Positions 1-9,470 of a stretch of 10,767 nucleotides of DNA are shown here, piece after piece. Positions within the stretch are counted from its first letter, which is position 1; each line of letters begins with the position of its first letter. This stretch comes from Pseudomonadota bacterium (GTDB lineage: Bacteria; Myxococcota; UBA9042; PHBI01). The translations under genes and the position numbers were made by a program. Below the pieces are notes generated by a model. The model searched no databases. It saw nothing but the letters and a program-made list of their open reading frames with translations, and had not been told where the DNA came from. The stretch covers positions 1-10,767 of the forward strand of contig SYAK01000137.1 of NCBI GenBank assembly GCA_005788935.1. Reading direction: 5' to 3'.

Positions 1-47
1 CTGGCGGTTTTCAAGACCGCAGCCTTCAACCACTCGGCCACTCCTCC
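1..47 (-). tRNA. tRNA-Ser (anticodon UGA), 5' part only
   Basis: Read on the minus strand the first bases give a 7-base acceptor strand GGAGGAG, then TG, a D-arm (GCC...GGC) with the AGTGGTTGAA loop typical of serine tRNAs, and an anticodon arm with stem GCGGT/ACCGC and loop CTTGAAA. The anticodon is TGA, complementary to + strand positions 11-13, so it decodes UCA and other UCN serine codons. The window ends just after the anticodon stem, so the long variable arm, T-arm and 3' acceptor strand lie to the left and cannot be checked. The 5' end is placed at 47 because the acceptor strand starts there. Confidence 0.93.
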
Positions 48-192: not shown

Positions 193-2562
193 TTAGGGGG
201 CCCCCATGGCACGGACCCGCTCGGGACGTTTCCACTCCCCCTGATCGCGCTCGCCGAACCAGGCGTCGAGCTCGCTGCCCGCATCGATGAGGTCGAGGTC
301 GTCGATCATCTCGGTGGTGGACGGGACGAACTCTTCGGCGTTGGACGGCGCACATTCGGTGGGACGCGGAATCTGGGCACAGTGCTGCGCCTTGAGCGCC
401 TCCTCCTTCGCCATCGCCTGCGCCTTCTTCTTGCTGACGCCCGTCGCGAGCCCCTGACCCGAGCTCACCGAGTTGTACATGAGCCAGAGGAGGAAGTGGA
501 TCGGGTGGAAGTGATCGAGGATCCCGCGCCAGTCGGTCACGTCGAGCCCGATGTGCTTCGCGACGTCCTTGTTGAGCCAGATGAACGGCAGCACGCTGCG
601 GATGGCGTCGCGCCCGAGCGACGACTCGCGCAGCAGCGCCTCGAACTCCACGACGCGCTGATCCCACCCCTCGGCCTTCGACAGCGACAGCACCCAGTCG
701 ACCATGTCCGACCACTCGGAGACGTGGCGCGTCACGAGGCGGCGCGTGAAGCGCTTCTCCTCGACGAACTCGGTCGGCGAGGTCCAGAAGCCCTCGATGG
801 TCGACGGGTCGAGGATCCGCTGCGGTGACAGGGCAGACCCACGCCGCTTCTGCGTCCCGAAGAGACTCAGGATGTCACGGCTCTCGACGAAGAGGTCGGC
901 CCCGACGTCGACAGGCAGCTCGGTGAAGAAGCGCCCGTGAACGCCCATGTCGACGGCGTCCTTCCAGGTGGGCTCGGCGAAGACCTCGACGTGGATCTGC
1001 GCCTTCCACTCGTCCTCATGGCCGAACATGCCCATGCGCCCGATGACGTCGCCCGGCTTGATCGTGATCGGGTTCTTCTCGTGCAAGATCTTGGCGAGCT
1101 TGCCGTCGCGCAGCCCCTGCACTCCATCGCCGACCTTGAGCCATCCCGTCTTCTTGTCGATGGCGTCGGGGTCGGTGACGTCGACCTCGTTCGCGTCGAC
1201 GATGTCCTCGACCTCTTCCTCGTCCTCGCCCGGCTTCTTCTCGAGGTCGGCTGCCGCTCCGTCGGTCTTGCCCGCGTCCGCCTTCAGCAGATCGCGCACC
1301 CACTGCGGCGACGCGTCGTCGACCTTCGTGAAGTCGATCGTGTCGAGGTGCATGTAGAGGGAATAGAAGACCAGGTTCTTCGGCGGCGGGACCTCGGTGG
1401 CGCCCGGCATCACCGGCTGTGCCATCGGCACCGTGTGCTTCAGCAGGATGAAGTTGTTGTGCCCGAGCTTGCTCGGCGCACGCCCGAAGCGGGCCGCGAC
1501 GAGCACGCCCTGCATCATCGCGTAGACCTTGTCGCCGCGCTTTCCTCCAAGGTGGATGCCGCCATGCCAGGTCTGGTTGATGCCGATCGGGTACCAGCCG
1601 TTCGTCTGCGTCTCGTTGTGCTGGTAATATTTTTCGGCGTAATCGCGCACCTTGGCCGGCTCGAGCAGGCTCCCGATGTTCTTCCCCTCCTCGAGGTCGA
1701 TCGGGAAGGCGTTCTTGCCACCTGCGAGTGCGTGGTAGACGCGCTGCCAGTCAAAGCCCGGACCGGGATCCCAGCGCTGCGACTCCCAGTGCCAGTGCGC
1801 CATGAAGCCCGCGTGCGAGGCCGGATCCTCGAGCGGCGTGTTGATGACCTCACCGTCGAGGCCGATCGGGTAGGCGTTCTTGATCTCGGGCAGCTGGATC
1901 ATCAGGACCCGCAGCAGCTCGATGATGGCCGCGTACTGCGGCTCGGTGTAGCCATAGGCTTGCACCTTGACGTAAGCGAGCTCTTTCACGTCTGATTTCG
2001 GGCGCTTGAACTCGGGCTTCATCATCTCCTCGTAGCGCGCGTGGCCAGCGCGATACATCTCGCCGTCGGGCTCCTTCACGAGGTTCTTCATGATGTTGTT
2101 GAGGTCGATGCCGACCGACTTCCCGTTCGCTTCACCTGCGTGATAGCCGCAGTCGCGGACGTCGAGGACCTGATAGATGGTCCCGTCCCAGTCGATGATG
2201 AAGTGCGTCGACAGGTTGCGCGAACGCAGCACGTTGAAGCACATGTTGGCGTCGACGCAGCCGTCGATGTGAAAGACGATCTGGTTGACGTGGCCCGCGA
2301 GCTCCTCGGGGGTCCTCAGCGTCTTGCCCTTGTCGATGCGCCCGTCACTGTAGCAGGGAGACCCGCCACCGAGGCACTTCGCGCTCGTCGTCTCCGAGTA
2401 GAAGCTCATCACGGCGGGCTCGCTGCCCGGGTCGTTGAAGGTCACGACCTTCACGTTGCCGCCGAGCCGATGGTACTCGCCCGCGATGATGATGCTCTTG
2501 CCGTCGGGTGCAGGGGCTGCACCATCCGTCGCGGCCGACGCTGCTGCCGGAGTCTCAGCCAC
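193..2562 (-). CDS. Bidomain peptidoglycan hydrolase-like protein: PGRP/Amidase_2 domain plus M23 (LytM)-like domain
   Basis: Predicted 789 residues. Residues about 90-280 look like the zinc N-acetylmuramoyl-L-alanine amidase (AmpD/T7 lysozyme/PGRP) fold: H98 in FHIDGC, H141 in YHAGE, D153 in SVGIDL at the AmpD Glu116 position, H256 or H258 in AHWHWE, and D265 in RWDPGPGF. Such enzymes cut the bond between N-acetylmuramic acid and L-alanine. Residues about 330-530 look like an M23 endopeptidase: HGGIH (333-337), YMHLD with H405, a GD.IGRMG turn, and QIHVEV (522-527). Two M23 positions differ: the HxxxD Asp is H337, and the first His of HxH is Q522. An acidic insert (about 429-469) interrupts this domain. 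Residues 580-789 match nothing I recognise. No signal peptide is visible; the N-terminus is Ala/Pro-rich. The GTG start at 2562 is chosen because of the strong ribosome binding site and because longer versions only read the upstream gene in another frame. Last gene of the cassette. Confidence 0.85.
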   Translation of the reverse strand: MAETPAAASAATDGAAPAPDGKSIIIAGEYHRLGGNVKVVTFNDPGSEPAVMSFYSETTSAKCLGGGSPCYSDGRIDKGKTLRTPEELAGHVNQIVFHIDGCVDANMCFNVLRSRNLSTHFIIDWDGTIYQVLDVRDCGYHAGEANGKSVGIDLNNIMKNLVKEPDGEMYRAGHARYEEMMKPEFKRPKSDVKELAYVKVQAYGYTEPQYAAIIELLRVLMIQLPEIKNAYPIGLDGEVINTPLEDPASHAGFMAHWHWESQRWDPGPGFDWQRVYHALAGGKNAFPIDLEEGKNIGSLLEPAKVRDYAEKYYQHNETQTNGWYPIGINQTWHGGIHLGGKRGDKVYAMMQGVLVAARFGRAPSKLGHNNFILLKHTVPMAQPVMPGATEVPPPKNLVFYSLYMHLDTIDFTKVDDASPQWVRDLLKADAGKTDGAAADLEKKPGEDEEEVEDIVDANEVDVTDPDAIDKKTGWLKVGDGVQGLRDGKLAKILHEKNPITIKPGDVIGRMGMFGHEDEWKAQIHVEVFAEPTWKDAVDMGVHGRFFTELPVDVGADLFVESRDILSLFGTQKRRGSALSPQRILDPSTIEGFWTSPTEFVEEKRFTRRLVTRHVSEWSDMVDWVLSLSKAEGWDQRVVEFEALLRESSLGRDAIRSVLPFIWLNKDVAKHIGLDVTDWRGILDHFHPIHFLLWLMYNSVSSGQGLATGVSKKKAQAMAKEEALKAQHCAQIPRPTECAPSNAEEFVPSTTEMIDDLDLIDAGSELDAWFGERDQGEWKRPERVRAMGAP

Positions 2563-2563
2563 C

Positions 2564-4333
2564 TCAGCCTCCCTTCGCCTTCTTCTGGGCTTCCTTCGCC
2601 TTCTTGGCGGCGGCGATCGCCTTCGCCTTCGCCTTGTCCGCCCCCTTGCCGCCCTTGACCGCCTTCGCCGCCGCGGCCTCGCCACCCTTGGCGAACTTGA
2701 GGATGATCTTGAGCAGGATGAGCAGCACGACGAGGGCCACCGCGATCGCGACCGCGAGGAATCCGCCCTTGCCGAGCTTCGCCTCGCCGAGCGCCTTCAC
2801 CTCCGCGACGACGCCGGGCTCGAAGCGCGGTGGAATGAGGACCTTGAAGGGGTCGGACTTGAAGCTCGACTTGCCCGCGCGGGCCTCGAGGATGTAGCTC
2901 GCGTCGCCCTTCGGCGTCACCGTGTCATCGGCGAACGTGACGACGATCTGGCCGTTCAGCTCCTCGACGAGGGCATCGGAGACGGCGCCGACATCCTCGG
3001 CCGCCTCGGCGTGGCGCGGCGTCCCGCCCGTGCGCCAGGCCAGCAGCTCGAGGCGCTCGCGCGTCGCAGGCGTACCCGTCGGGTGGATGACGCTGTAGAT
3101 GCGGATGTTGGCAGCCTTGGCGAGCCCGAGCCAGGTCGGCAACTTGCGGACGAAGACGGCCTGCTCGGCGGAGATGAACTCGGCCGCGCGCGCCGACTTC
3201 CGGCTGTCGATGCAGGCCTTGCGCGCCTCGCCGTAGGCCTTCTTCGTGCCGTAGTCCTTCGGGTTGGCGGCGGACCGTTTGGCGAGCTGCGCGACCCCGG
3301 CCTCCTCGTCGCAGGCCTTCTCGATCTGGAAGCTGCAGTCGGCGAGCGCGTCGATGTAGCCGTCGCGCCCGTCGCCTGTCAGGATCAGGATTCGCGGTTG
3401 CCCAGGCCGCGCGTCGCGCGCGAGCATCTCGAGCGCGAGATCGAGAGCCTGAACCCGTGACGCGTCGCCGTCGGCCGACATGCCGGTGCGCTTCAGCGGG
3501 TGCGAGGGGTCCTGGCAGAGCTTGTAGGGCTGCCCGAGGCCGAAGAGCTGCGGCCAGTAGCCCTCGTAGGGCAGGCGGGCCCCAGCCACGATGTCAGCGA
3601 AGTTGTCGTAGCGTGCGTGGAGCCCGCAGCGGGCCTCGTTCGGCGCAGGGCCCTCGGGCGGTGCGGCAGGTGCCTCCTCCCCCTTCGCGGCCGCGATCTC
3701 CTCGGGCGTCATGCCCCAGTACTCCAGGTTGTCCGTCTCCCACGTCCGACAGGCCTCGAGGATGTCGGGCGTCATCGCCGTCAGCCCGTTCAGGTGCCCC
3801 TGCTTGAAGACGTACGCATGGACGAAGTCGTTGTACCAGATAACGTTCAGCTGGTTCGCGGCGCCGAGCTTCTTCGCGAACAGGGCGGCCGCTGTGCGGG
3901 ACGTCGTGCCGAGGACCCCCGCGCGATACTCGAGATCCTGAAAGCCTGGCGCCACGATGGCGATCGCAGCCCCCTCCTTCAGGGCGTTTGCGAAGGCGAG
4001 CTCGGGCTTGACCGCGAGGGCCTCGCGCTTGCCGAGCTCCTCGGGCTCGAGGTCCTTCGGCCAGGTCAGCGCCCCGTCGACGAACGCGAAGAGCTCGACC
4101 GGACTCTCACCGTCTGGCTTGCGCGAAAGGCGCACCTGCGTGATGAGGTCGGTCGGGATGGGGCGGACGTTCTTGCCGAGAACAGACGCGTAGACCCGGA
4201 TGAGCGGGGCCTTCGAGGTGTCGATGTGGTTGATCTTGAGCTGCGGTTCGAAGCTCTGCGCGGAGCTGGCGCGCGGCGCGCAGACGACCCCGAGAAGCAG
4301 CAGCGCGACGAGTCGGAATGCGGGCGCGCTCAT
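2564..4333 (-). CDS. Sec-exported, membrane-anchored von Willebrand A-like protein with Lys/Ala-rich tail
   Basis: Predicted 589 residues. Residues 1-25 form a Sec signal peptide (hydrophobic LVALLLLGVV, likely cleavage after SSA). Residues about 120-465 resemble a von Willebrand A domain: a first strand AIAIVAPG, a helix and strand QLNVIWYNDF, then RILILTGDGRDG (315-325) where vWA proteins have a TDG strand, RIYSVI, the LELLAWRTGG segment, and QIVVTF at the end. A Cys- and Pro-containing insert (about 190-285) splits the domain. The DxSxS metal motif is not seen; APGFQ stands in its place. One membrane helix spans about 524-547, followed by a 42-residue tail with 13 Lys from 549 on and only 3 acidic residues, predicted to face the cytoplasm. 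ATG at 4333 overlaps the upstream stop (ATGA), so I prefer it to GTG at 4342. Membership in the vWA family is by pattern only; a plausible role is a surface adhesion or assembly platform. Confidence 0.8.
   Translation of the reverse strand: MSAPAFRLVALLLLGVVCAPRASSAQSFEPQLKINHIDTSKAPLIRVYASVLGKNVRPIPTDLITQVRLSRKPDGESPVELFAFVDGALTWPKDLEPEELGKREALAVKPELAFANALKEGAAIAIVAPGFQDLEYRAGVLGTTSRTAAALFAKKLGAANQLNVIWYNDFVHAYVFKQGHLNGLTAMTPDILEACRTWETDNLEYWGMTPEEIAAAKGEEAPAAPPEGPAPNEARCGLHARYDNFADIVAGARLPYEGYWPQLFGLGQPYKLCQDPSHPLKRTGMSADGDASRVQALDLALEMLARDARPGQPRILILTGDGRDGYIDALADCSFQIEKACDEEAGVAQLAKRSAANPKDYGTKKAYGEARKACIDSRKSARAAEFISAEQAVFVRKLPTWLGLAKAANIRIYSVIHPTGTPATRERLELLAWRTGGTPRHAEAAEDVGAVSDALVEELNGQIVVTFADDTVTPKGDASYILEARAGKSSFKSDPFKVLIPPRFEPGVVAEVKALGEAKLGKGGFLAVAIAVALVVLLILLKIILKFAKGGEAAAAKAVKGGKGADKAKAKAIAAAKKAKEAQKKAKGG
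2568..2575 (-). promoter_or_regulatory. Ribosome binding site that fixes the amidase start
   Basis: On the minus strand AAGGGAGG ends 5 bases before GTG at 2562. It is the best Shine-Dalgarno match seen among the genes here. It sits inside the last codons of the upstream gene, whose TGA (2566-2564) ends one base before the GTG, so translation of the two genes is probably coupled. An ATG further upstream at 2685 would add 41 mostly arginine residues that are only an out-of-frame reading of the Lys/Ala-rich end of the previous gene. Confidence 0.7.
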
Positions 4334-4761
4334 GAGAACCACCGGATGTCGCGGACGCCGTAGGTGACGGCCGCCTCACTGACCGCGCTCCGCCCGCCGA
4401 GGACGGCCTCGAGCGTGTAGCGGTAGGTGCCAGGGACGCGGCCCTCGAACGGATAGGCCAGATGCGCCGCGACTCGCGCGGTTCCCGAAGGGCCGTCGAG
4501 TCGGACGCGGCCGAGATCGCGCGTGACGACCCCGCGCGGCGTCTCGATGTGGAGCCACAGACGGGCCTTGGCGCCAAACGGAGCGTTCGGAAAGCGAAGC
4601 CCGACCGTGACGGGCGCGTCGGGAAAGACGACTGGGTCGATGAAAGCCACTGCGTCGCCGCGCGAGAGGCGCACGAGCCCACCCGCGACCGCACCGCCGA
4701 GCCCGAGCGCGGCCGTCAGCCTGAAGAATCCTCGTCGTCCGAGCTTCGTCACGTCCGTCAT
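4330..4761 (-). CDS. Small Tat-signal protein with a beta-rich, Ig-like domain
   Basis: Predicted 143 residues. The N-terminus has a twin-arginine motif GRRGFFR (8-14) followed by a hydrophobic stretch (about 15-31), so export in folded form by the Tat pathway is likely. There is no clean AxA cleavage site right after it, so it could stay anchored. The rest (about 40-143) alternates short hydrophobic strands such as VTVGLRF, ARLWLHI and YRYTLEAV, with a GTYRYTLEA segment typical of immunoglobulin-like or fibronectin-like folds; I cannot name a family. The ATG at 4761 is chosen because the Tat signal begins there; upstream in-frame sequence is arginine-rich, unstructured and crosses the divergent promoter region. 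No Shine-Dalgarno is seen before it. First gene of the three-gene cassette and joined to the vWA-like gene by an ATGA overlap. Confidence 0.8.
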   Translation of the reverse strand: MTDVTKLGRRGFFRLTAALGLGGAVAGGLVRLSRGDAVAFIDPVVFPDAPVTVGLRFPNAPFGAKARLWLHIETPRGVVTRDLGRVRLDGPSGTARVAAHLAYPFEGRVPGTYRYTLEAVLGGRSAVSEAAVTYGVRDIRWFS

Positions 4762-4941: not shown

Positions 4942-5958
4942 GTGACGAGCCTGAACGCCGAGGACTGGACTATCGCGGCCATCGCCGCCCGGGTGCCCCA
5001 TCCGCCGTCTCCTGCGGGTCCTGGCGACGACGCGGCGATCGTGACGGCGGCAGGCGGTGTCGTGGCGCTGACGACCGACCTGCTCATCGAGGAGACGCAC
5101 TTCCTCGCGGCCCATCCGCCCGAGGCGCTCGGCTGGAAGTCGCTGATGGTCAACCTGTCCGACGTCGCCGCGATGGGAGCGGTCGCGACGGGCTTCTGTC
5201 TCGGGCTCGGGTTGCCGCGACGCTGGCCCGGGTCCCTGCGGCGGCGCTGGGTGGAGGGCTTCGCCGACGGGCTGGGCGCGGCGGCCCGGCAGGCGGACGT
5301 GATGCTCGTGGGGGGCGACACGGTGCGCGCGGATGCTGGCGTCGTCATCGCCATCACCGCCTGGGGCAGCACCGGGGCGCGACTGCTGCGGCGGGACGCG
5401 GCGCGGCCTGGCGACGAGGTGTGGGTGCTCGGACGGGTCGGGCGGGCGGGCGAGGGCCTGCGCCGCTGGCTCGCCGATGCGCGGACCCGGTCAGCGTCGC
5501 TCGAGGCGGGCGAAGTGCCTCCGACGTGGGAGGCGGCAGCCGCGACCGCGCTGCTCGCCGATCCCTGCCTGCGGGCACACCTCCGCCCAGAGCCAGCGCT
5601 CACGGCCGGGAAGTCGGCCGCCGAGCGCGGCGCGACCGCGGCGATGGATCTCTCTGACGGCCTCGCGCGCGACCTTCCGCGGCTCGCCGAGGCGAGTGCC
5701 GTGACCCTCGCGATCGACCTGGCGCGCCTGCCAGATGACCTGACACTTCGTCAGCTGACACCTGCCGCCCGCGCCACAGGCGGCGAAGACTATGGTCTGC
5801 TCGTGACCGCCCCGGTCTCCTGCCACGCAGCCATCGCGGAGCTCGGCTTCACGGCGATCGGGACCGTCGGGCCACGGGACGCCGACGGTGTTCTGGTACG
5901 CTGGTCCTGCAACGGCGCGGCGATTGCGCCACCCTGTCCTGACTTCGAGCACTTCTGA
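4942..5958 (+). CDS. thiL: Thiamine-monophosphate kinase
   Basis: Predicted 338 residues, the normal length for ThiL. The enzyme phosphorylates thiamine monophosphate with ATP to give the active cofactor thiamine diphosphate, in the cytoplasm. It belongs to the PurM/AIR-synthase fold rather than to Walker-type kinases. Signature segments appear in the family order: GPGDDAA (26-32), TTDLLIEETHF (44-54), WKSLMVNLSDVAAMGA (65-80), GGDTVRA (124-130), AMDLSDGLARDL (234-245) and ATGGEDYGLL (278-287). The Asp residues in these motifs bind Mg and the phosphates, and all are present. The GTG start has a GGAG four bases upstream and gives the expected short N-terminus before GPGDD. First gene of the plus-strand cluster; its stop ends one base before the next ATG. 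Confidence 0.95.
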   Translation: MTSLNAEDWTIAAIAARVPHPPSPAGPGDDAAIVTAAGGVVALTTDLLIEETHFLAAHPPEALGWKSLMVNLSDVAAMGAVATGFCLGLGLPRRWPGSLRRRWVEGFADGLGAAARQADVMLVGGDTVRADAGVVIAITAWGSTGARLLRRDAARPGDEVWVLGRVGRAGEGLRRWLADARTRSASLEAGEVPPTWEAAAATALLADPCLRAHLRPEPALTAGKSAAERGATAAMDLSDGLARDLPRLAEASAVTLAIDLARLPDDLTLRQLTPAARATGGEDYGLLVTAPVSCHAAIAELGFTAIGTVGPRDADGVLVRWSCNGAAIAPPCPDFEHF

Positions 5959-5959
5959 C

Positions 5960-6982
5960 ATGAGCCGCCGCTACCTCGAAGCTGTCGAGACCAACGCGCG
6001 CGTTCGCGTCGGGCTCATCTCGAACCCGCTCGCGCACACGAACTGGCGGTCGGTCGCCCATCCGCGGCTCCGTGCCCTGCTGCCCGAGCCCGACCTCGCG
6101 GTCGAGACCCCGAGCATCTCGGCGCTCGACGCGACCTTCTCCGACCTGCTGCTCGCGCGCGGCGTCAACGTCCTGATCCTCAACGGCGGGGATGGCACGA
6201 TCCACCACGCCGTCAACAGCGCGCTGCGCGTCCTCGACGGGGCCGCACGCGACCTCGGGCGTCCCCTGCCCGGCCCGGCCTTCCTGTTCGTCAACGGCGG
6301 CGGGATGAACATGCTCGCCCGCGTCCTCGGGACCGTGGGACACCCCGTCCGGACCGTCAGACGCTTCCTCGCGCTCACCCGCGGCGCCCGCCTCGGCAGC
6401 ATCCCGCGGCGCCCCGTCCCGCTGCTCGCCGTCCGCGAGGCCTCCGGGCTGACGCGCCACGGCTACATCTTCGGGTCCGAGCTCGTCTACAACGCGCTGA
6501 CGATGTACGAGCGCTTCGGGCAGGGTTACCGCGGGCTCGGCCGATTCCTGTGGGAGGTCGGGGCGGGCTACACCCTCAAGACGAAGCTCTGGCAACGCTA
6601 CGGGCACCTCCTCGACGCCCCGAAGACCGAGCTGACGCTCGACGACGAGCGCCTGCCGACGTATGCAGCGGCGGTCGCGACGACCGTCCCGTTGCAGCTC
6701 GCGAAGGGGCTCGTGTCGGCGGTCCGCCACGTCGCAACACCAGGCACGATGAACACGGTCACCGTTCTGCCGACCGCCCCCGAGGCGCTGATTGGCCTCA
6801 TCCCGCCACTCATGGTCGGCGCGCCCGCGGAGGGCGTCCTGCGCCGCGCGGTGCGGCGAATCGCCCTCGCGGGCCCCTACACGCTCGACGGGGAGCGCTT
6901 CGACCGACACGAGGCGCCTGGGGACGCGGCGCTCGAGGTGTCGGGGACCGAGCGGGTGATCTGGGGAGTGGATCTGCGATGA
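5960..6982 (+). CDS. Diacylglycerol/sphingosine kinase-type lipid kinase (YegS/DagK-like catalytic domain)
   Basis: Predicted 340 residues, close to the usual 300-340 of bacterial YegS/DgkB-like lipid kinases. It begins VRVGLISNPLA, the usual first strand with the Asn-Pro, followed by the nucleotide-binding loop LNGGDGTIHHAVN (74-86). The second glycine-rich segment FVNGGGMNMLAR (110-121) corresponds to the family's GTGNDFAR region, with G where T is usual. The C-terminal beta domain ends with TLDGERF (308-314), as in the family's DGE motif. These enzymes transfer phosphate from ATP to a lipid hydroxyl on the cytoplasmic side of the membrane; the actual lipid cannot be told from sequence. The ATG lies one base past the thiL stop with no strong ribosome binding site, which suggests translational coupling. 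An ATG-less upstream extension into thiL was rejected. Confidence 0.85.
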   Translation: MSRRYLEAVETNARVRVGLISNPLAHTNWRSVAHPRLRALLPEPDLAVETPSISALDATFSDLLLARGVNVLILNGGDGTIHHAVNSALRVLDGAARDLGRPLPGPAFLFVNGGGMNMLARVLGTVGHPVRTVRRFLALTRGARLGSIPRRPVPLLAVREASGLTRHGYIFGSELVYNALTMYERFGQGYRGLGRFLWEVGAGYTLKTKLWQRYGHLLDAPKTELTLDDERLPTYAAAVATTVPLQLAKGLVSAVRHVATPGTMNTVTVLPTAPEALIGLIPPLMVGAPAEGVLRRAVRRIALAGPYTLDGERFDRHEAPGDAALEVSGTERVIWGVDLR

Positions 6983-8295
6983 GCGCCCGCTGGTCCCTGC
7001 TGTGGTCGAGTCTCCTCATCGCGTCCGCCTGCGCGCCGCGTGCCCGCGATGGCTTGCCGGCGTCGGGACTGAGCCCGCTGCCGGCCATCCCGGCTGGAGC
7101 ACCCGACGCGGACGGGGCGGCCACCGCGACCGGTCAGGCGGAGGAAGCTGAGCGCCCGGTCATCGTCGCCGAACCGGAGACCCTCCGCGTCTACCGGGCC
7201 ACCCCAGTCGAGCTCACGGCGAGCCCGCCCGCGTCGGTCGCCCCCGACGCCTTCAGCCGCGCGAGCTGCCGCTGGAGCTTCGGCGACGCAACGCCCGAGC
7301 GCGAGGGGTGTGCGATTTCACACACATTCCTCCGCGGGACAGCCGACGAGCGGGTGACGCTGACCGTCGAGCTTGACGGGACCCGCCACAGCGTGACGCG
7401 CATTCTGCCGCTTGAGCGTCTCTCGGTGTCGCCCGAGGCGCTCGGCGAGGCCCCCACGGACGGGACCCTGCCGCCGCCACCCGACGGTCCGACGAGCTTT
7501 CGCCTCGTGCTGCTGTCCGAGACCGCCGGGGTCACTGGGCAAGCCAACCTCGCCGCGACGCTCGCGGCGCTGTCGCCCGCCCTGGTCGTCCACCTCGGCG
7601 GGGTCGTGGCGCGGGCTGGGGCTGCGGCCGCGACGACGCCCGAGGGCGCCTGGGAGACCATCCGCGACCGCCTCGCCGAGCCCCTCGCGCGCGCAGGCGT
7701 CCCGCTCGTCTGGGCGCTCTCACCCGAGGATCTCGGCTCGGGCCCGGTCGTGCGGCACCCCGCTAGCGCCGAAGGAGCCCTCGAGCTGGCGGCGGGCTCG
7801 CGCTTCCCGAGTCGCAGCGCCATGACCTTCCGCGGCGTGCATCTGACGGTGCTGACCGGCGACGTGCAGGACGATGAGACCCTCGCCTGGCTGCGCGCCC
7901 GGCTCGACGAGGCACAGGTCTACGAAGCCCGCATCGTCCTCTCCCACCTGCCCCTCCACCCATTCAGCGGGCGGGTCGGCCCGACGCTCGGCCCGCGTTT
8001 CAAGCTCTACGAGCTCTTCCTGCGGGCACGGGTCTCATTGCTTGCGACCGCAGCACACGGTGTTCATTACGCTGCGCGCTACGGGGCCCTGCCCGTCGTA
8101 TCGGTGGGCCGCATCGACGGCTCCCCGTCGGCCCTTGCAGGTCAGGCGCTCGTCCAGCCGCCAAGCCTGACGCTCGTCGACGTCGAGGAGGGCCGACTCG
8201 CGCGCGTCCACGCCCTCGAGCAGACCCCCGACGGGCGCTGGCTGCCGCTCGACCCCGCCTACCTGCCCGACCGCGTCGAGGTCTACACGCGATGA
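6979..8295 (+). CDS. Lipoprotein with PKD-like domain and degenerate metallophosphoesterase domain
   Basis: Predicted 438 residues. A signal peptide ends in a permissive lipobox IASAC, so C18 is probably lipid-anchored; a low-complexity Ala/Pro linker follows to about 60. Residues about 68-145 look like a PKD domain (CRWSFGDAT, ISHTF), with C97 and C111 able to form a disulfide. Residues about 173-380 follow the outline of calcineurin-like metallophosphoesterases, strand by strand: RLVLLSETAG for the DxH strand, VVHLGGVV for the usual hLGDhh, VWALSPED for GNHD, IVLSHLPLHP for the conserved SH.P, and ATAAHGVHYA for GHxH. Most metal ligands are replaced; H323, H360 and H363 remain. I infer a non-catalytic envelope binding protein. 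The ATG overlaps the previous stop (ATGA), with GGGGAG ten bases upstream. Longer in-frame versions enter the lipid kinase gene and lack the signal peptide at their start. Confidence 0.75.
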   Translation: MSARWSLLWSSLLIASACAPRARDGLPASGLSPLPAIPAGAPDADGAATATGQAEEAERPVIVAEPETLRVYRATPVELTASPPASVAPDAFSRASCRWSFGDATPEREGCAISHTFLRGTADERVTLTVELDGTRHSVTRILPLERLSVSPEALGEAPTDGTLPPPPDGPTSFRLVLLSETAGVTGQANLAATLAALSPALVVHLGGVVARAGAAAATTPEGAWETIRDRLAEPLARAGVPLVWALSPEDLGSGPVVRHPASAEGALELAAGSRFPSRSAMTFRGVHLTVLTGDVQDDETLAWLRARLDEAQVYEARIVLSHLPLHPFSGRVGPTLGPRFKLYELFLRARVSLLATAAHGVHYAARYGALPVVSVGRIDGSPSALAGQALVQPPSLTLVDVEEGRLARVHALEQTPDGRWLPLDPAYLPDRVEVYTR

Positions 8296-9470
8296 CCCAG
8301 CCCCGCGGTCTCTATGTTCATTTCCCGTGGTGTGTCCACCGCTGCCCGTATTGCGACTTCGTCCTGACGACCGCACGGGTGCCGCCCTCGGAGGCCTATA
8401 CCGACGCCCTGCTCGCCGAGCTCGCCCATCGACGACAGACGGAGTGGGACGGTGCGTTGGGCACGCTCTACATCGGCGGCGGCACGCCGAGTCTCTGGGA
8501 GCCGCGGGCCCTCGCGCGCTTCGTGGCCGCGGTCGCGCCCGAGCTCGTGGCTGGCGCCGAGCGCACCCTCGAGGCAAACCCCGAGCAGGTCGATGACGAA
8601 TGGCTCGAGGCCATCACGGCCCTCGGCTTCAACCGGGTGTCACTCGGCGTTCAGTCCCTCGACGCGGAGGCCCTCACCCACCTCGGCCGGGGACATGGTC
8701 CCGATGGCGCCGCGCGCGCCCTCGATCGTCTGGCTGACGCCCACGCGGGCGGGCGGCTCGGGAGCTTCTCGGTCGACCTGATGTACGGCTGGCGCCGCTC
8801 CGATGGCCGCCCGCAGGAGGTCGAGGGGCTGCTCGCCGAGGCCACGGCCATCGTCACCCGGTGGCGGCCGCCGCACCTCAGCTGCTATGCGCTCACCGTG
8901 GAGCCGCGGACCGTGCTCGGCCGCAAGGTGCGGGACGGGCTCGTGGCGGCCCCGGATGACGGATTGCAGGCCGAGATGATGTTCGCGCTGCGCGACCACC
9001 TCGCCGAGCTCGGTTACCGCCACTACGAGGTCTCGAGCTTTGCCCGCGACGGCGCGCTCGCGGTCCACAACACCCGCTACTGGGACATGACGCCGTGGCT
9101 CGGGCTTGGCGCGGGGGCCGCAGGCTTCACCGGGACCCGGCGCTATCGCAACCAGCCCGTCATCCGGCGCTACCTGGCGGCCGAGCCCCACGCGACCGAG
9201 ATCGAGTCGCAGCTGCTGACGGACGATGACCTCGCCTTCGATGCCGTCATGACCGGTCTCCGCCGCCTTGACGTCGGGGTCGCGTGGACGGACGCGCTCG
9301 AAGACCGCTTCGGCGAGACCATGCGCCGCGCGGTCGCCGACGGACGGCTCCACCGCGAGGACGGAGCGGCGGGGCCACGGGTCCGGGTCACCGACATGGG
9401 CCTGCGCTTCCTCGACGACGTGCTCGCGGAGCTGCTCGTATCGCTCGACGCGCCCGTGAAACGCCCGTGA
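8292..9470 (+). CDS. hemW: HemW-family radical SAM protein (heme chaperone, coproporphyrinogen oxidase-like)
   Basis: Predicted 392 residues, normal for HemW. The N-terminus YVHFPWCVHRCPYCDF carries the radical SAM CxxxCxxC cluster (C14, C18, C21). There is no fourth Cys right after it, which points to HemW rather than the oxygen-independent coproporphyrinogen oxidase HemN. GGGTPSL (62-68), LEANPE (93-98), RVSLGVQS (115-122), DLMYG (162-166), HYEVSSFAR and HNTRYW (259-264) follow in family order, then the HemW C-terminal domain. HemW binds heme and a 4Fe-4S cluster and is thought to deliver heme to membrane proteins. One difference: the segment usually ending GAHG reads GAGAAG (273-278), with Ala in place of His. 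ATG overlaps the preceding stop by 4 bases. The stop is created by an 11-bp tandem duplication. Confidence 0.92.
   Translation: MTQPRGLYVHFPWCVHRCPYCDFVLTTARVPPSEAYTDALLAELAHRRQTEWDGALGTLYIGGGTPSLWEPRALARFVAAVAPELVAGAERTLEANPEQVDDEWLEAITALGFNRVSLGVQSLDAEALTHLGRGHGPDGAARALDRLADAHAGGRLGSFSVDLMYGWRRSDGRPQEVEGLLAEATAIVTRWRPPHLSCYALTVEPRTVLGRKVRDGLVAAPDDGLQAEMMFALRDHLAELGYRHYEVSSFARDGALAVHNTRYWDMTPWLGLGAGAAGFTGTRRYRNQPVIRRYLAAEPHATEIESQLLTDDDLAFDAVMTGLRRLDVGVAWTDALEDRFGETMRRAVADGRLHREDGAAGPRVRVTDMGLRFLDDVLAELLVSLDAPVKRP

Follow-up and report, generated by a model that had tools for sequence, protein, structure and literature searches.

A conserved three-gene cassette of Myxococcota encodes two exported proteins and an AmpD-type amidase with a WHIX-like half, a possible cargo of a contractile injector other than the T6SS

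In the 10,767-nt stretch of Myxococcota DNA analysed here (the window), three adjacent genes, A, B and C, make up a cassette that is a real, conserved set, found in the same order in related genomes. By its sequence, the largest product, C, is an amidase of the AmpD type in which the ligand residues are intact, and it resembles the WHIX peptidoglycan effectors at profile level in its first conserved region. We propose, with a probability of roughly 0.45, that C is a wall-cutting cargo loaded onto the spike of a contractile injection system other than a T6SS, and that B and A serve it as exported immunity or anchoring partners.

Results

The three genes are tightly coupled on the minus strand

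All three reading frames lie on the minus strand: gene A at 4330–4761 (143 aa), encoding a twin-arginine (Tat) type exported protein; gene B at 2564–4333 (589 aa), whose product combines a signal-like N-end and a vWA fold with a single membrane helix at the C-terminus; and gene C at 193–2562 (789 aa), encoding an Amidase_2 and WHIX-like protein without a signal peptide. The start of B and the stop of A share an ATGA overlap at 4330–4333. At the B/C junction (2560–2573), a GGGAGG ribosome-binding-like site within the end of B lies just upstream of the TGA stop of B (2566–2564), one g and the GTG start of C (2562–2560). The ATGA and TGA-g-GTG junctions are as the original prediction of a tight three-gene coupling had them, and A, B and C probably share one transcript.

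Profile searches returned no Pfam match in A or B and no above-cut-off NCBIfam match for A, B or C, and Rfam and ARAGORN gave no match anywhere in the window. At the very edge, positions 1–47 (minus strand) look, by the familiar pattern, like a serine tRNA gene of which the window takes in the 5′ half only, ARAGORN reporting no tRNA in the window. On the plus strand, positions 4942–9470 hold a tight divergent run in which genes overlap by 4 bases in two places: thiL, a DAGK-type lipid kinase gene, a gene for a PKD-like putative lipoprotein, and hemW. Its thiL scores above the TIGR01379 cut-off, and a thiL-group gene is near the cassette in other loci too.

The order of A, B and C is conserved across relatives

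A first collection scan found five relatives of C, with 34 to 48% identity in the best segment, and in all five loci A and B lie upstream of C in the same order, which is thus not unique to one genome. The 4-nt A/B overlap is kept in L002–L005, and L001 has a 62-nt gap instead. In a survey of 377 genomes from the phylum of G002, a sample of a larger group, C was present in 80, presence being defined as a match at E of at most 1e-20 with the family alignment of C; three of these genomes (G339, G368 and G370) match in the M23-like part only.

Of 66 loci, the window included, 57 have B immediately before C (at most 700 nt by profile ends), three have it 1.7–3.4 kb upstream (L056, L059 and L099), and two have room for B but lack it (L075 and L076); the other four (L057, L064, L070 and L090) end 0–1.7 kb upstream of C, too near to it to show whether B is there. 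These counts, like those for A, are not fully independent of position, because matches adjacent to C or B went into the rebuilt profiles of B and A. An A profile match precedes B in 39 of the 55 loci with room and none was found in the other 16, nine of which have a loose Tat-like frame (L074 is doubtful). The three genes are not regularly apart in the loci examined; that, or an order unique to one genome, would have refuted the original prediction, which thus passes its own check. The hand-made gene finder missed genes in several loci; the genes flanking the cassette vary between groups of loci, and the conserved unit is accordingly the three genes themselves.

In L056 and L059, B and C are separated by the insertion of a 676-aa gene, which we take to resemble that of a membrane sulfatase-type protein, and of a reversed 323–343-aa gene. 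L057, which breaks off at its contig end, shows a portion of this large gene ahead of C.

A and B are predicted to be exported

The N-terminus of A, MTDVTKLGRRGFF, is of Tat type. Its RRGFF motif (residues 9–13, positions 4723–4737, minus strand) was assigned from the sequence and the family alignment, in which R9, R10, G11 and F12 are invariant in six of six members, and the Tat signal of the original prediction is thereby borne out.

By a simple hydropathy rule, 44 of 48 B family members have a hydrophobic N-end and 47 of 48 a hydrophobic helix near the C-end. In the B of the window these are a putative signal peptide at about residues 1–25 (4259–4333, minus strand), called by the hydropathy rule alone, and a C-terminal membrane helix at about residues 522–546 (2696–2770, minus strand), which is followed by a Lys/Ala-rich tail; both agree with the earlier description of B as exported and membrane-anchored. 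The part at about residues 113–466 (2936–3997, minus strand) was assigned a vWA fold in the fold test and contains GDGRDG, but the DxSxS metal site (MIDAS) is absent from it and was found in none of 50 B family members, so that the label vWA-like holds for the fold and fails for the metal site. On the reading proposed here, B and A would be exported immunity or anchoring partners of C.

The N-terminal domain of C is an AmpD-type amidase with conserved ligands

The Amidase_2 domain of C (residues 92–268, positions 1759–2289, minus strand) scores 47.6 bits against a Pfam cut-off of 26. Its ligand positions H98, H256 and D265 are kept in 121 of 121 sequences, namely 120 of 205 C relatives, among the matches listed, plus the C of the window (P0003). 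A signal-like stretch, borderline by hydropathy, was seen in one of the 121 C sequences listed, versus the 44 of 48 for B; the C of the window has no hydrophobic N-end or helix of the kind seen in B, and no Tat signal. AmpD-type domains cut the MurNAc-L-Ala bond. AmpD and other Amidase_2 enzymes lack the WHIX-like half and are shorter, the length of C being about four times theirs.

A phage derivation of C was considered and rejected: at E 0.01, none of 50,697 phage records matched P0003, and viral contigs gave nine loci, all of which match the amidase part only.

The other half of C is WHIX-like rather than an ordinary M23 enzyme

The motifs of M23 enzymes are named HxxxD and HxH. The Peptidase_M23 match of C lies below the Pfam cut-off (20.9 versus 28.7 bits) and is found at E 0.01 in 44 of 58 family members, and Foldseek gives LytM-type chains at low rank. 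C differs from the LytM type in having HxxxH where M23 has HxxxD, and position 522, the first His of HxH, is variable. An ordinary M23 enzyme was rejected on these grounds; of the amidase/M23 dual enzyme that had been predicted, the amidase stands, and the M23 half is better described as a WHIX-like variant.

The first WHIX-like region, delimited by hhalign (residues 321–425, positions 1288–1602, minus strand), contains the WHxxxH motif as WHGGIH (residues 332–337, positions 1552–1569, minus strand, by family alignment). Among the relatives listed plus the C of the window, the W is kept in 121 of 121 sequences, the first H in 120 and the second H in 118. When this region was compared with a profile of seven WHxxxH proteins, which is distinct from the reference sequence of PMC12135965, hhalign gave a probability of 99.4 and an E of 4.2e-21, versus probabilities of at most 0.6 in all ten column-shuffled controls. 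The second conserved region (residues 500–700, positions 463–1065, minus strand), with HVE, SEW and HFHPIHFL, gave weak local matches to the same seven proteins (hhalign E 0.003–0.005), of which three have SEW and three an FHP-type motif, a fourth (L113) having a diverged FHP-type one.

VgrG, PAAR or TssH was found in the retrieved stretch of four of the seven comparison proteins (L110, L113, L114 and L115), and no T6SS gene was found in the stretches of the other three (L116, L117 and L118). L113 belongs to a Capnocytophaga plasmid that also bears T6SS baseplate genes. Its WHxxxH protein, some 900 aa long (5953–8657), comes right after VgrG-like and PAAR genes, and the frame is absent from the incomplete gene table of the plasmid.

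C shares traits with WHIX effectors and TseP

The WHIX domain, described in 2025, loads peptidoglycan effectors onto the T6SS spike, and it was defined as a T6SS-specific loading domain because nearly all carrier genomes (>98%) have a T6SS (PMC12135965, in the parts drawn on here). The same parts of that source place the immunity gene upstream when the toxic domain of a WHIX effector is N-terminal, describe the flanking gene products as mostly having signal peptides, and list one AmpD-like amidase and one PGRP among the N-termini (its Table 2). As far as subclass II of these effectors is described there, C shares with it the WHxxxH motif, the first region, an N-terminal peptidoglycan-cutting domain, the lack of a signal peptide and an upstream gene with a signal-like N-end; it differs in having no C-terminal toxic domain, in its fixed partners A and B, in its weakly alike second region and in being carried mostly by genomes without TssC. 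WHIX effectors have a signal-bearing neighbour on the toxic-domain side, and B is such a neighbour of C: it adjoins C upstream in 57 of 66 loci and is signal-like in 44 of 48 members, so that its place and N-end fit the immunity pattern of N-terminal toxic domains.

The zinc amidase TseP-N has H19 and H23 in HxxxH spacing plus a further His and Glu, and was superposed on 3SLU (PMC11893102, in the part cited); the Foldseek results for C include 3SLU at rank 27 (E 0.014). HxxxH spacing and a listing with 3SLU are common to C and TseP, compared by description from that part of the paper, whereas TseP joins its N-domain to a C-terminal lysozyme and C joins the like region to an N-terminal AmpD-type amidase.

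C-bearing genomes carry an eCIS-like injector more often than a T6SS

TssC was found in 16 of the 80 C-bearing genomes versus 53 of the 297 others (p 0.63), some of its absences possibly being gaps because the 80 include MAGs, and in two of the 30 genomes with the strongest C matches. The sheath (PF04984) occurs in 74 of the 80 versus 80 of the 297 (Fisher p 1e-27), and in 60 of the 64 C-bearing genomes without TssC. A sheath subtype of about 400 aa, defined after seeing the data and counted among the matches listed (to about 2e-15), is present in 65 of the 80 versus seven of the 297 (p 7e-50, post hoc); among the same matches, 15 genomes have C without the subtype and the seven have the subtype without C. 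TssC is not associated with this subtype (p 0.74).

A recurrent run was seen in 20 injector loci, with the sheath in 19, a gp19-like tube in 19, a 123-aa protein in 18, a Pvc16-like protein in 17, a CIS_tube-like protein in 14 and a VgrG-like protein in 11, as counted with an incomplete gene finder. In L146, Pfam and PHROGs identify Pvc16_N, two sheaths, two gp19 tubes, CIS_tube with LysM, gp25 and a VgrG-like tail protein (PHROG), a gene content that indicates an eCIS-like injector. The 123-aa protein of L146 (7403–7774) has a weak match only, to a phage tail assembly chaperone, and a 1,088-aa protein without a Pfam match (13049–16315) lies between the second tube gene and the CIS_tube gene. 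In the relative G001, where C reaches 48% identity over the best segment, the injector run is present (L140) and TssC gave no match, and from relatives such as this we infer that the genome of the window may carry an injector as well.

eCIS clusters are known from Myxococcota MAGs, for which a role in predation was suggested (PMC11937823, in the part cited). The phylum and the clusters with sheath and gp19 tube are common to those systems and the present ones, and the cited part of that account mentions no WHIX protein or A-B-C cassette. Within the literature covered, subscription journals and preprints being outside its scope, no paper linking WHIX with eCIS was found.

In the loci examined, the cassette and the injector are encoded apart. 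None of six injector profiles matched in any of the 66 cassette loci, and conversely nothing in the PAAR loci or in any of the 20 injector loci matched the profile of A, B or C; with zero cross-matches, a direct clustering of the two was rejected. TssH was found in one of the 66 cassette loci and VgrG or PAAR in none, the same queries matching six of nine comparison loci, and C as a strict T6SS effector was likewise rejected on these and the TssC counts. In L099 (genome G335), a C homologue (10760–12709) lies on a contig with TssH and TssC, so that the C family can also adjoin a T6SS; the locus may connect the members that go with a T6SS to those that do not.

PAAR was found in 133 of the 377 genomes, in 48 of 80 with C versus 85 of 297 without (p 4e-7) and, in genomes without TssC, in 39 of 64 with C versus 54 of 244 without, but is not taken as evidence of delivery because the three of 19 mapped contexts that were read gene by gene (L122, L126 and L131) look housekeeping. 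These PAAR proteins are mostly of about 106 aa, with a DAHGCPACPH motif (L120–L123, L135, L136 and L139).

Shared ancestry may account for the co-occurrence

An rpoB tree was built for 61 of 80 chosen genomes, 25 of them with C; the 80 came from a random draw thinned by hand, to which the seven subtype-without-C genomes were added deliberately, five being retained. The cassette needs only five changes on this tree, giving three to five independent pairs. In cassette-differing pairs, the sheath subtype differed in the same direction in a mean of 1.2 and in the opposite direction in 0.0 of 3, and after removal of three long branches in 2.2 and 0.1 of 4, respectively. Differing pairs thus nearly always point in the same direction, but both traits are clustered on the tree and the independent changes are too few for any test, so that the strong co-occurrence may be ancestry.

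Discussion

The gene order, the amidase ligands, the missing signal on C, the export signals of A and B, the likeness of the first region to WHIX and the co-occurrence with the injector are observed here; from them we infer the loading, delivery and target of C and the roles of A and B along the following lines. C would dock on the injector spike through its WHIX-like second half and would be delivered without a signal peptide, as injected effectors are; in most cassette bacteria the machine would not be a T6SS but an eCIS-like system whose genes lie in another part of the genome. From what is known of the family, the AmpD-type domain would cut the MurNAc-L-Ala bond, and the WHIX-like half may supply a second zinc site, as TseP-N does. 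B would be fixed in the inner membrane with its vWA domain in the periplasm, and A would be its Tat-exported companion. Since both would face the compartment in which C would do harm, their most likely task is to shield the wall of the producer or to tether C or the injector at the membrane. Immunity proteins usually change fast, and the conservation of B is evidence against this part of the proposal. The lack of linkage between cassette and injector, the possible shared ancestry, the weak match of the second region, the three comparison proteins without a T6SS gene in their stretch, and the genomes that have only C or only the sheath subtype also count against the proposal. A joint job at the cell wall, as originally predicted, is likely, and predation-related lysis is compatible with the evidence; for the spore coat, also named then, nothing seen lends support.

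Among the alternatives, remodelling of the producer's own wall survives best, although we hold it to be unlikely. C would hitch-hike on the Tat-exported A, B would hold C in the periplasm, and the link to the injector would be common descent. Tat transports folded metalloenzymes, and hitch-hiker export is known in other systems. The place of A before B in 39 of 55 loci by profile, with a loose Tat-like frame in nine more, agrees with such a role, as do the genes such as thiL beside the cassette in several genomes and the clustering of the cassette on the tree. This explanation leaves unaccounted for both the likeness of C to a spike-loaded WHIX region and the strength of the injector association.

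The next alternative, to which we give rather long odds, is a lysis module in which a cytosolic, endolysin-like C opens the wall of the producer to free the injector particles, with A and B gating its access. C is amidase-based and signal-less, its amidase part matches phage endolysin families, it co-occurs with an eCIS-like system, and R-tailocins are released by a holin, a lysin and a spanin (PMC10598620, in the part cited). However, A and B are not holin-like, B having one C-terminal membrane helix and A one Tat-type signal; a WHIX-like half serves no known endolysin need; and the cassette and the injector lie apart in the loci examined. An ordinary T6SS effector with upstream immunity genes is very improbable, since the WHIX-like architecture of C, the TssH and TssC of the L099 contig and three large genomes with TssC that match C in the M23-like part only are set against TssC in only 16 of 80 C-bearing genomes and two of 30 with the strongest matches, VgrG, PAAR or TssH queries that match one of 66 cassette versus six of nine comparison loci, and the injector run of G001 without a TssC match.

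If C does ride the spike of a non-T6SS injector as cargo, a large WHxxxH family in mostly TssC-less, injector-bearing genomes would break the rule that ties WHIX to the T6SS. Because most C-bearing genomes gave no TssC match but have another injector, the cargo family may serve more machines than had been supposed, and a principle of cargo loading would be common to T6SS and eCIS. More tentatively, and with the odds rather against it, WHIX might be a general spike-docking module of several contractile injection systems, the Myxococcota amidase riding an eCIS-like machine and B and A forming an undescribed exported guard or docking pair. For the injectors of Myxococcota, the finding would point to the bacterial wall as a target.
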